Both the position numbers and the translations under genes were made by a program. Below are positions 26,115-36,749 of a stretch of DNA of 64,000 nucleotides, piece by piece. Numbering within the stretch: position 1 is the stretch's first letter; every line of letters begins with the position of its first letter. The notes below the pieces were generated by a model. It made no database searches. It had not been told where the DNA came from and saw only the letters and a list, made by a program, of their open reading frames with translations. Source of the stretch: Pseudomonadota bacterium (lineage in GTDB: Bacteria > Myxococcota_A > UBA796 > GCA-2862545); NCBI GenBank assembly GCA_023954855.1, contig JAGSGY010000022.1, positions 1-64,000 of the forward strand, read 5' to 3'.

Positions 26115-28328
<2,214 letters not shown>

Positions 28329-30770: not shown

Positions 30771-31880
30771 ATGCAGTGGCTCGGACGATATGAACTCCGC
30801 GAGCGGTTGGGGGCGGGCGGAGATCTCGCCGTGGCGGAGGCGTACGCGGGCGAAGCCCTCGAGCTGGCGGTGGGCTCCTCCCCGAAGACAAGGGGCGTAG
30901 CCCTGCGACGTGCGGGCGCCGTGGCCAGGCATGCGGGGCGTCTCGAGGACGCCAGGACGCTGTGCGGTGACGCACTGGAGCTTCTCGGCGACGAGGCCGG
31001 CTCCATGCGGCTTCTGGCCCAGTTTTCGTCTGCCAACATCGCCTTAGTCGCTGGGGATGCGGTGCAAGCTGTGGCCCTCTACCGGCGCGTGGTTCTCGAG
31101 GCTGTGGATCTCGGCGATATCCGCGTGGAGGCGATGGCCAACGGCAACCTTGGGTATGGGCTCATGGCGATGGGGCACACCGATGAGGCCATGGCCGTCC
31201 TCGAGCGCGCGCAAGACCTCGATCGGTCGCTGGGCCGCAAGGCTGGCGTGGCGTCCGTGCACGGCAACCTCGGGGTGCTGGGCCTCGAGAGCAATGACTT
31301 CGAGGCTGCCGAAGACCACTTCGAGCAGGCCCTCGCGCTGTATGCGCATCTCGGTGACGCCGGCGGCCAGGGACGGATGCTCGCGAACCTCGGATTCATG
31401 AACCTCGAGCGTGACGAACTCGAGAAAGCCGCAGCGCTGCTCGAACGGGCGGAGGCAGCGGCGACGCGAGCTCGCGACGTCCGAAGTCTCGGCGTAGTGC
31501 GTGGGTTCATGGGCCTGGTTCATCGCGAGCGCGGGGAACGGGCACTTGCCGAAGGAAGACTCGAGCTTGCCCTAGCCTCCGCGCGACAGGTCGGAGACCG
31601 ACGCTACGAGGGGCATTGGCTTGCGGAGCTCGCACGCATCCGCTGTGACGAGCGGTCGATTGCGGCACTCGATCAAGCCGACGCGCTTCTCTCTGAGGCC
31701 GCCGACCCCATGATGATTGCGATTGCCCGTACCGCGCGAGCAGAGGTGCTCTGGCGCCGTGGGATGCCGGCAGATGCGCAAAGCCTGCTCGAGGCGATTG
31801 ACGCTCCCAACGCGGAGGCCTCGCGAGCCATTGCGAGGGTTCGCGCCCTGATGGCATCCGCCCGTCCTTCGGGTCGCTAG
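30771..31880 (+). CDS. TPR protein carrying a truncated Ser/Thr kinase N-terminus
   Basis: 369 residues. The first 17, 'MQWLGRYELRERLGAGG', are the typical start of a myxobacterial Hanks-type kinase (first strand and the first half of the Gly loop). The sequence then jumps directly into TPR-like helices ('LEDARTLCGDALELLGD', 'VASVHGNLGVLGLESNDFEAAEDHFEQAL', and so on). Everything from VAIK through the catalytic and activation loops is absent, so no kinase activity is possible. Such TPR regions normally form the C-terminus of large kinase-ATPase-TPR proteins. An in-frame internal deletion near 30822 is the simplest reading. The frame downstream is intact, so a TPR protein may still be made. 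It shares the CTAG stop with the histone gene. Confidence 0.7.
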   Translation: MQWLGRYELRERLGAGGDLAVAEAYAGEALELAVGSSPKTRGVALRRAGAVARHAGRLEDARTLCGDALELLGDEAGSMRLLAQFSSANIALVAGDAVQAVALYRRVVLEAVDLGDIRVEAMANGNLGYGLMAMGHTDEAMAVLERAQDLDRSLGRKAGVASVHGNLGVLGLESNDFEAAEDHFEQALALYAHLGDAGGQGRMLANLGFMNLERDELEKAAALLERAEAAATRARDVRSLGVVRGFMGLVHRERGERALAEGRLELALASARQVGDRRYEGHWLAELARIRCDERSIAALDQADALLSEAADPMMIAIARTARAEVLWRRGMPADAQSLLEAIDAPNAEASRAIARVRALMASARPSGR

Positions 31881-32077
31881 ACGTCCTGCGCCTTGACCGT
31901 CTTGCGCCCGTTGGCCTTGGCCCGGCGAATCGCGACTTTCACGGATCGCGTCACCTGATGGCCGAGCTCGTTCCAGACCTCTTGGGAGATGCGCATGTCC
32001 GCCTCTGCGAAGAGCTTCTTCACCTTGGACTTCACGATGAGATCAGCGGGGTCGACACGGTCTTCTTCAGTGGGCAT
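31877..32077 (-). CDS. Bacterial histone-fold protein
   Basis: 66 residues. After a short acidic start, 'VKSKVKKLFAEADMRIS' (helix 1 and loop), a long helix 2 ('EVWNELGHQVTRSVKVAIRRAKANG') and 'RKTVKAQDV' (loop 2 and a short helix 3) match a single histone fold. The last block is nearly the archaeal histone signature RKTIKAEDV. Length, the KSKVKK start and the truncated third helix resemble the known bacterial histones such as that of Bdellovibrio. GGAGG lies eight bases before the ATG. Basic residues cluster in helix 1, the end of helix 2 and loop 2, where DNA contacts are expected. It probably dimerises and binds DNA in the nucleoid. It is divergent from the oligopeptidase gene. Confidence 0.85.
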   Translation of the reverse strand: MPTEEDRVDPADLIVKSKVKKLFAEADMRISQEVWNELGHQVTRSVKVAIRRAKANGRKTVKAQDV

Positions 32078-32174
32078 GAGAGCACCTCCGCCGTGACCTT
32101 ACTCTGTCTTGGCAAGCCTGGGATCAGCGGATCGAGCGCCGAGGCCTTATCTTGTCCGACTGCGAGGACTGCTG

Positions 32175-33878
32175 ATGAGCTTTGTGCACCACCCCGAGCG
32201 CCCCGAAACCCTGACTGCCGGCTTTGTCGAGGCCGAGTACGCCAAGCTCATTGGCCGCTGCGCGAGTGCTGAGGCCGCCGAGGACGCGACGCCGTGGCGA
32301 AGCCTGTTTGCGGACTGGAACGCACTCAAGTCGTATGTCTCGAGCGAGGGCAGCCGGCTTCGGTACGCCTACACGAAGGACATGCGGGACGCGGCATCCG
32401 AAGAGGCCGAGCGGACCTTTCGCGAGCAGGTCGTCCCTGCTTCGGAAGACGCGAACGCGGCGCTGATCGAGGCCCTGCTCGCAAGCCAGCACCGCGGCGA
32501 CCTCGCCGAGCACTATGGTGAGCAGCTGGTCCGCGTGCTCGAGGTCAACGAGCCCACGCTAGCTCCGCAGAACAGCGCACTCCGGGTCAAAGCCGGAGAG
32601 CTGGCCAAGCGCTACGACAAGCTGGTCGCCTCAGGCGAGGTGGTCATCGATGGCGAGACGCTGACGCTTCCCAGAGTGCGTGGCCTCACCACCTCGAGTG
32701 ATGCAGCGACGCGGCGCAAGGCCTTCGAGGCCTACTACGGTTGGTACATCGACCACCGCGATGCCATCGCTGCGATCTACGCCGAGCAGGTGGCGGTACG
32801 CGACGAGATGGGACGCAACCTCGGCCACGAGAACCACGTGCGCCTTGGCTATGCCGGTATGGGCCGCGTCGACTACGGCCCTGCCGAGTCCAAGCAGTTC
32901 CGCGATGCCGTGCGAACCTATGCCTCCCCGCTGTTCGCAAAGATTGGCGCCGATCAGGCGAAGGCGCTGGGAGCCGACAGCTTTCGGCCCTGGGACCGCG
33001 GATTCCATCCAGACCTGACCCTCCCGACCGGCGTTGCCGAGCCCATCGATCAGCAGCTCGACAAGGCCGGCCGCGTGTTCGAACGCCTGTCGCCAAAGCT
33101 CGCAGCACACTTCGAGAACATGCGCGCGCAGGGGCTCATCGACCTCGAGAACCGCAAGGGCAAGGCGGCGGGTGCCTACTGCACCTCGTTCCCGGACGAG
33201 GCCAAGGTCGCCATCTTCTGCAACTCGATCGGCGACCAGAGCGATGTTCGCACGCTCACCCACGAGATGGGCCATGCCTTCCAGGGCTGGGAGAGCCAGT
33301 GGATCGAGGCCATCGACCTGCGCTGGCCGAGCCTCGATGCCGCTGAGGTCCACTCCATGGGCATGGAGTACCTGACGCTGCCCTACCTCGATGAGTTCTT
33401 CACCCCGACTCAGCTCGAGCAGTTCACCCGCAGCCGCTGGAAGAAGGCCGTCGAGCTCCTCTGCTACGTGTGTGTGGTCGATGCCTTCCAGCACTGGGTC
33501 TACGAGAATCCCACCGCGACCGCTGATGCCCGAGATGCCCAGTGGACTGTCTTCCAGGACGAGTACATGCCCGGGCTTGATTGGTCCGGCGATGCCGCTC
33601 GCTACGCGTCTTCCCGCTGGTACGCGCAGCTGCACATCTTCCGCTACCCGTTCTACTACATCGACTACGCCATCGCCGAGACGGCCGCGATGCAGCTCGG
33701 TCTGCTCGACGGACAGGACCACGAGGCCTGCCTCGAGACCTATCTCGAGCTGTGTCGACTAGGTGGCACGGGCAGCGTGCTCGAGCTGCTCTCGGGCGCC
33801 GGACTGCGCTCACCCTTCGAGGGCGAGTTGATGCGGGACCTGATGGCCCACGCAGCAAGCGTGCTCGGGCTCGACTAG
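32175..33878 (+). CDS. pepF: M3-family oligoendopeptidase F
   Basis: 567 residues from the ATG at 32175, which has GAGGA six bases upstream; an upstream alternative adds an unlike Arg-rich leader. The zinc site 'HEMGHAFQ' places His363, Glu364 and His367, with the third ligand Glu391 in 'EVHSMGMEYL', as in M3B peptidases. Helical N-terminal and C-terminal lobes ('RYPFYYIDYAIAETAAMQLG') fit the family over its full length. It is a cytoplasmic zinc peptidase trimming short peptides. The stop shares CTAG with the converging methyltransferase gene. Confidence 0.9.
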   Translation: MSFVHHPERPETLTAGFVEAEYAKLIGRCASAEAAEDATPWRSLFADWNALKSYVSSEGSRLRYAYTKDMRDAASEEAERTFREQVVPASEDANAALIEALLASQHRGDLAEHYGEQLVRVLEVNEPTLAPQNSALRVKAGELAKRYDKLVASGEVVIDGETLTLPRVRGLTTSSDAATRRKAFEAYYGWYIDHRDAIAAIYAEQVAVRDEMGRNLGHENHVRLGYAGMGRVDYGPAESKQFRDAVRTYASPLFAKIGADQAKALGADSFRPWDRGFHPDLTLPTGVAEPIDQQLDKAGRVFERLSPKLAAHFENMRAQGLIDLENRKGKAAGAYCTSFPDEAKVAIFCNSIGDQSDVRTLTHEMGHAFQGWESQWIEAIDLRWPSLDAAEVHSMGMEYLTLPYLDEFFTPTQLEQFTRSRWKKAVELLCYVCVVDAFQHWVYENPTATADARDAQWTVFQDEYMPGLDWSGDAARYASSRWYAQLHIFRYPFYYIDYAIAETAAMQLGLLDGQDHEACLETYLELCRLGGTGSVLELLSGAGLRSPFEGELMRDLMAHAASVLGLD

Positions 33879-35811: not shown

Positions 35812-35903
35812 GCAAACATCGGCGGTGGATCGTCCGCTGCCGATAGGGCATGATAGGGGTGTTGGGTGACGCGTCCTCCTCTGCGTCCCTGTCGGAGTGC
35901 ACC

Positions 35904-36749
35904 ATGTCTAAGATTCAAGACCCTTGGGGCAACTACATCTTCTCGCTTGAGCTCGATGGCACCGAGGTCGGTCGCTTTACTGAGTGCTCAGGCCTGAAGT
36001 CGAGCGCCGAGGTCTTCGAGATCGAAGAAGGTGGCTACAACAGCGGCACGCGCAAGGTTGTCGGCCGTAGCAAGTGGGACAACATCGTGCTCAAGTACGC
36101 GACCTCTGCGTCGACCGTACTGCTCGAGTGGCGCGACAAGTACCTGCAGGATGGCTTCGACGGTCGCAAGGACACGACGGGTTGCATTGTCATGCGTGAC
36201 AACGCCGGTGCCGAGCTGCGTCGCTTCAACTTCGTCGGCTGCTGGCCCGTGTCCTGGGAAGGCCCAGCCTTCAACGGCGGCGGTTCCGACCTAGCCATCG
36301 AGAGCTTTGAGATCGCCCACGAGGGCATCTACATCGACAACGCCAAGCCGACCCCTCCGCCCACGCCCGAGCCGCTTCCCGACAAGATCGAGACCGAGCC
36401 GATTCAGTTCGAGTTCGACTCCGCCGAGCTCACGCCCGAGGGTGAGGCCACGGTCGACGACCTCGCCGATCAGCTCAAGGAGCACCCCGAGGTCGAGACG
36501 GTCTACATCGAGGGCCACACCTGCGACATGGGTAGCTTCGGCCACAACATGGGCCTGTCGATGCAGCGCGCCGAGTCGGTCAAGGCTCGGCTCAAGCCGC
36601 AGAACCCCGACAAGACCTACATCGCCACCGGCTACGCCTATAAGCATCCCGTGGCGTCGAACTCGTCGCAGGCCGGTCGCGAGAAGAACCGCCGCGTCGA
36701 CTTCTTCCAGTCCGAGCGGGCCGGAAAGCGTCCCGGCGAGCTCGCGTAG
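35904..36749 (+). CDS. Contractile-tail tube protein (gp19-like) fused to an OmpA peptidoglycan-binding domain
   Basis: 281 residues from the ATG at 35904, which has GGAG seven bases upstream. Residues 1 to about 145 match the phage T4 gp19/eCIS tube family: 'WGNYIFSLELDGTEVGRFTECSGL', 'EEGGYNSGTRKVVGRSKWDNIVLK' and 'AIESFEIAHEGI' follow the family order. A Pro/Glu linker (about 146-168) leads to an OmpA C-terminal domain: 'IQFEFDSAELTPEGE', 'IEGHTCDMGSFGHNMGLSMQRAESV' and 'GREKNRRVDFF', keeping the Asp and Arg residues that contact diaminopimelate. There is no signal peptide. No sheath, baseplate, spike or AAA gene is nearby, so it is an orphan. A 130-residue domain on every subunit would probably clash with a normal sheath, so an unsheathed ring or tube is possible. 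Confidence 0.85.
   Translation: MSKIQDPWGNYIFSLELDGTEVGRFTECSGLKSSAEVFEIEEGGYNSGTRKVVGRSKWDNIVLKYATSASTVLLEWRDKYLQDGFDGRKDTTGCIVMRDNAGAELRRFNFVGCWPVSWEGPAFNGGGSDLAIESFEIAHEGIYIDNAKPTPPPTPEPLPDKIETEPIQFEFDSAELTPEGEATVDDLADQLKEHPEVETVYIEGHTCDMGSFGHNMGLSMQRAESVKARLKPQNPDKTYIATGYAYKHPVASNSSQAGREKNRRVDFFQSERAGKRPGELA

Follow-up and report, generated by a model that had tools for sequence, protein, structure and literature searches.

The 66-residue protein encoded on the minus strand at positions 31877-32077 of the window (by which we mean the whole 64,000-nucleotide stretch of contig JAGSGY010000022.1 that was analysed) is, as judged from sequence searches and a predicted structure, a single-domain histone of the α3 family. 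We consider it likely, with a probability of about 0.7, that it is of the face-to-face (FtF) type. R52 and N56, the length of loop 1 and the profile scores lead to the prediction of a DNA-wrapping tetramer comparable to those of HLp from Leptospira or HTkC from Thermococcus kodakarensis.

Sequence searches and predicted fold

A phmmer search of the PDB with the single sequence recovered HTkC, a solved archaeal FtF tetramer (9F2C), as the best match (E=1.6e-7), followed by the Bdellovibrio bacteriovorus histone Bd0055/HBb (8FVX, 8CMP; E=9.7e-5), HMfA (E=0.05) and, weakly, HLp (9QT0; E=0.61). With a family profile of 55 sequences, namely the window protein and 54 relatives, HLp 9QT0 became the best match (E=5e-20), followed by Bd0055 (9.6e-16) and HTkC (1.3e-15). 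The HMM search against histone families suggested in an earlier note on this DNA bore out the assignment in part: the NCBIfam archaeal-histone model was matched with E=2.3e-5, but at 24.7 bits, below its curated cut-off of 50 bits, and the Pfam model CBFD_NFYB_HMF (PF00808) with E=0.025 at 15.3 bits, below its gathering cut-off of 21.4, a cut-off also missed by all four Myxococcota relatives tested.

The AlphaFold2 monomer model, built from the 55-sequence family alignment (mean pLDDT 85.6, pTM 0.63), shows α1 at about residues 16-25, α2 at 32-55 and a three-residue α3 at 63-65. Foldseek searches with this model placed HTkC first and HLp and HBb thereafter, with HBb giving the higher TM score over the query, and no match reached E=0.001. 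In VIA-align the seven top rows were all HLp, HTkC and HBb entries, with Z-scores of 7.6-8.1 and rmsd of 0.8-1.4 Å over 55-57 residues, and the next row fell to Z=5.5; the program warns that Z below 8 can be unspecific, but here the gap in Z and the sequence matches concur. α3 histones are marked by a histone fold with a shortened α2 and an α3 cut down to 3-4 residues. The model displays this truncated α3, its nearest solved folds are likewise α3 histones, and the protein carries the RxTxxxxD motif of the family, comprising the RD clamp R58/D65 and T60 of loop 2. The single-domain histone with a truncated third helix that the earlier note had read from the letters is therefore supported by both searches and predicted fold. 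Its label "Bdellovibrio-type", in contrast, is probably wrong, since the truncated α3 is common to the whole family according to the parts of PMC11390915 available to us and hence does not point to Bdellovibrio, and since the residues, loop length and profiles considered below favor the FtF kind.

Placement among the α3 histones

The consulted portions of PMC11390915 define FtF histones by a predicted tetramer and list R48, N52, R54, T56, D61 and a lysine in α1 as conserved, whereas bacterial dimers such as Bd0055 (described in PMC10627809, likewise available in part) are stated there to lack R48 and N52. In the window protein the interface arginine and asparagine (HMM positions 48 and 52) are both present, as R52 and N56, and together with R58, T60 and D65 they cover the five FtF positions that section 7 of that paper shows as most strongly conserved; the conserved α1 lysine (HMM position 16, K11 of D4GZE0) corresponds to K20 in an alignment to haloarchaeal rows. 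HLp relies on R49, N53 and R55 to hold its tetramer together, as given in the portion of PMC12701072 at hand, and R49/N53/R55/D62 of HLp are equivalent to R52/N56/R58/D65 here. The two proteins also agree in the length of loop 1 and in the short α3, and differ in K21 and K54 of HLp, which are replaced by A24 and G57, and in the last residue, which is V66 in the window protein and not the F63 of HLp. HTkC shares with it VKSKVK in α1, MR[IV]S in loop 1, GRKT in loop 2, the arginine four residues before the asparagine position and the lack of a long tail; it differs in having two more residues in the α1/loop 1 region, in its archaeal host and in a glutamate at the position of N56. As HTkC is a tetramer despite this glutamate, the asparagine is no strict marker of FtF histones.

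A first competitor is a bacterial-dimer histone of the HBb/Bd0055 kind, which would bind as a dimer and bend DNA. Among PDB sequences Bd0055 comes second in the search; it is alike in size and in the motifs SKVKKL and GRKTV, lacks a lysine-rich tail as the window protein does, and has a fold within 0.8-1.1 Å of the model. Structure scores do not separate the two classes (Z of 7.6-7.7 for HBb as against 7.8-8.1 for HLp), and a clade uniting the window protein with the dimer/ZZ rows remains acceptable under an AU test (p=0.61). However, the phmmer alignment shows serine and aspartate in Bd0055 at the positions of R52 and N56, and loop 1 of the window protein is one residue shorter than in Bd0055 and in all nine dimer/ZZ rows aligned. 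Its length equals that of most bacterial FtF rows, and we accordingly abandoned the notion that a shortened loop 1 marks a special subclade. HMM profiles point in the same direction: the window protein scored 74.2 bits with the archaeal FtF profile, 65.6 with the bacterial FtF profile and 55.3 with the dimer/ZZ profile, which thus trails them by 19 and 10 bits over the full core, in a comparison that is biased because the sequence sets were all gathered by likeness to the window protein and with unequal cut-offs. Leave-one-out classification with these profiles was correct in 22 of 24 cases. The pattern used to search genome contigs itself held the asparagine and the RKT motif, which renders their conservation in the resulting alignment (A2) circular, and for this reason the profiles were also run with the C-terminal 13 residues removed. 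The scores were then 49.0 (archaeal FtF), 29.7 (bacterial FtF) and 30.2 bits (dimer/ZZ), so that without the motif the dimer/ZZ and bacterial FtF profiles score alike and the archaeal FtF profile alone is set apart. On balance a dimeric, DNA-bending histone appears unlikely.

A second competitor is suggested by the protein's own order, whose sister families commonly have longer proteins in which a Cys/His-rich N-terminus precedes the histone domain; these are 38-48% identical to it. The window protein could be such a ZZ-type histone that shed its N-terminal zinc finger and kept the ZZ role rather than packing DNA, and the ZZ-like stretch AIRRARA.GRKTVKG.D does resemble its C-terminal half. Yet the protein has just 66 residues and its frame closes after 7 codons upstream, with no remnant of a zinc finger there; the aligned ZZ rows have D or E at the position of N56 (L026 excepted) and a longer loop 1, and the full-core profile scores favor FtF. 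We regard this derivation as very improbable. The FtF reading hence remains the preferred one, with the predicted tetramer resting on two residues and on kinship.

Predicted DNA binding and architectural role

By homology to HLp and HTkC, two chains of the FtF-type histone would form a head-to-tail dimer, and two such dimers would join at both ends of α2 and loop 2 into a ring-shaped tetramer, around which about 50-60 bp of DNA would wrap with no sequence specificity. DNA would be contacted by the α1 lysines and by loops 1 and 2. The protein has a pI of 9.8 and lysines K16, K18, K20 and K21 in α1. Of the residues named in the available part of PMC12701072 as the main contributors to the binding energy of HLp (R59, K21, K15, S14 and K17), S14, K15 and K17 are kept as S17, K18 and K20, R59 is replaced by K62 and K21 by A24. 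Whereas most bacterial FtF histones have a positively charged tail, as the accessible text of PMC11390915 reports, the window protein begins with a short, acidic stretch (MPTEEDRVDPAD).

These residues bear on a further alternative, namely that the protein has a histone fold with a role outside chromatin, as partner in a protein complex in the manner of some eukaryotic TAFs. The acidic N-terminus, the presence of the gene in few relatives and the different surroundings of two close homologues could be taken to fit such a role, but the α1 lysines, T60 and K62 of the DNA-facing side are kept and the pI is 9.8, which leaves it hardly probable at all.

Three full-length HU/IHF proteins are encoded in the genome, scoring 114.9, 101 and 81.7 bits, along with a fourth candidate whose match is weak (26 bits). 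With three such proteins the FtF-type histone is unlikely to be the sole architectural protein, and is probably one among several. This differs from Leptospira perolatii, the source of HLp (9QT0, 9QT1, 9QT2), a bacterial FtF histone wrapping about 60 bp, since that organism is without HU according to the part of PMC12701072 available.

The gene and its neighborhood

We conclude that 31877-32077 is a real gene. The frame opens with ATG, ends in NGRKTVKAQDV and is preceded by a Shine-Dalgarno sequence GGAGG (32085-32089, minus strand) 7 nt upstream of the start; the ribosome site, the 66-residue length and the C-terminus had been correctly recognized in the earlier note, to which we add the strand. 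The one other close free-standing copy in the order comes from Deltaproteobacteria bacterium isolate J125 (RFKJ01000629.1), which belongs to a different family and which the tree tool assigns to Myxococcota. This histone also has no basic tail and shares 44 of 63 residues with the window protein in an alignment without gaps. Between the two genes there are 14, 10 and 30 differences at first, second and third codon positions, and dN=0.22 with dS=1.26 indicates that the frame is under protein-level selection. The GC content is 60.7% in the histone gene and 67.1% in the window; GC3 is 82% as against 84% in the neighboring peptidase gene.

That neighbor, divergently transcribed as the earlier note had described for pepF, encodes a 567-residue, pepF-like M3-family oligoendopeptidase (32175-33878, plus strand; PF01432, E=4.9e-34), whose likely ATG at 32175 is equivalent to the one at which its homologue from the same genus begins. 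The 97-nt intergenic region between the two genes (32078-32174) yielded no sigma-70-like promoter that might back the earlier note's suggestion that the gene may be well expressed, and nothing else in a promoter/terminator scan, and an Rfam search of the window gave no match. A link between histone and peptidase through genome context was rejected: in the same-genus genome a peptidase of 72% identity is present and the histone absent, and of nine further window genes that were tested not one lies near that peptidase. The J125 histone gene, in turn, is flanked by frames that on reading are peroxiredoxin-like and sensor-kinase-like, so that synteny is not conserved between these two close homologues. 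The M3 peptidase is thus outside the histone system.

On the other side lies a convergent gene for a MalT-like TPR protein (30771-31880, plus strand), whose stop overlaps that of the histone gene by 4 nt (31877-31880). On reading, its first residues, GRYELRERLGAGG, look like the beginning of a Ser/Thr kinase domain with the TPR region directly after, and it may descend from a kinase-TPR protein whose kinase domain was lost. Elsewhere in the window, 35850-36749 (plus strand) encodes a 299-residue fusion of a T4 gp19-like tail-tube domain to an OmpA domain, which may be the tube protein of a contractile-injection-like apparatus and bind peptidoglycan at one end, and 26115-28328 (plus strand) a 737-residue lipoprotein-like protein with a PKD match and a long Gly/Ser-rich C-terminal half.

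Phyletic distribution and origin

The histone is patchily distributed and rare in its lineage. Its genome holds one copy, two further matches (E=0.07 and 0.64) not being taken as histones, and within its family it was found in one of 21 genomes (E up to 1e-3) and, with a more sensitive profile, in one of 20 scanned; the family's single match is the free-standing form in the window's own genome. Across the order, 2 of 63 genomes match at E up to 1e-7, and a profile search matches 29 of 60, mostly in longer frames, which in the loci read begin with a region rich in Cys and His, the arrangement described for ZZ histones; the ZZ label refers to this Cys/His pattern as set against the description in the available part of PMC11390915, curated Pfam and NCBIfam models scoring below their cut-offs. 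Such zinc-finger-histone-like proteins (among the loci, L005-L013, L019 and L020) occur in three of the six sampled families of the order (f2, f4 and f6). At the level of the phylum 21 of 377 sampled genomes match (E up to 1e-3), and among the matches read there are ZZ-like, dimer-like and FtF-like proteins. A first search of named genome contigs with the single window protein gave no match; a motif-pattern search retrieved 60 loci, spread over numerous bacterial phyla and also present in a few archaea. Carriage by phages or plasmids was dismissed, as there was no phage match and no relative on a viral contig, and the 24 plasmid records matched are all haloarchaeal by genus name.

Alignment A2 comprised the window protein and 54 of the 60 named loci (L035, L057, L061, L062, L084 and L087 were left out), and the fragment L087 was likewise left out of the trees. 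Both trees placed the window histone within archaeal FtF rows. In the first it grouped with that of Jingweiarchaeum (support 98/86; locus L067, 3944-4123), whose loop 1 is two residues longer, as in HTkC; in the phylum of that archaeon 53 of 279 genomes match at E up to 1e-5. For the second tree, 24 of the 29 archaeal loci L106-L134 were included as well (the motif filter missed L113, L114, L119, L120 and L126), and in it the window histone joined four Aenigmatarchaeota/Hadarchaeota rows (97/87). The nearest rows thus change between trees built on 58 columns. Besides the clade with dimer/ZZ rows discussed above, a tree that sets the archaeal rows apart from the window histone is also acceptable under the AU test (p=0.77), and both forced trees have a higher likelihood than the free one. 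For these reasons a clear archaeal origin was dropped as a claim, while lateral transfer from archaea is possible on the sequence evidence. An empty insertion site was not demonstrable in the same-genus genome, where synteny is lost. As a tentative and rather doubtful scenario, a myxococcotal lineage otherwise without histones may have taken up an archaeal FtF histone laterally, whose wrapping tetramer would now act beside three HU/IHF proteins.

Conclusions

The excerpts of PMC11390915 and PMC12701072 available to us already report FtF histones in Myxococcota, and those of the former already propose transfer of α3 histones between archaea and bacteria, so that the present case is a data point and not a new idea. 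The earlier note's view that such genes are little studied in this lineage accordingly stands as regards experiments, of which these excerpts describe none there, but not as regards their description. Literature searches on the family, which did not extend to the authors' sequence lists, found no paper on the window protein. It is an ordinary addition to a described family, Myxococcota included.

Bacterial histones are nonetheless rare, and two have been characterized in detail in the surveyed literature, HBb and HLp. An archaeal-like FtF histone that lacks a basic tail and coexists with HU/IHF would bear on the question of whether HU is displaced or supplemented by histones that wrap DNA. If a transfer from archaea did take place, this organism would amount to a natural experiment on the way in which a nucleosome-like particle from archaea is accommodated in bacterial chromatin built on HU.
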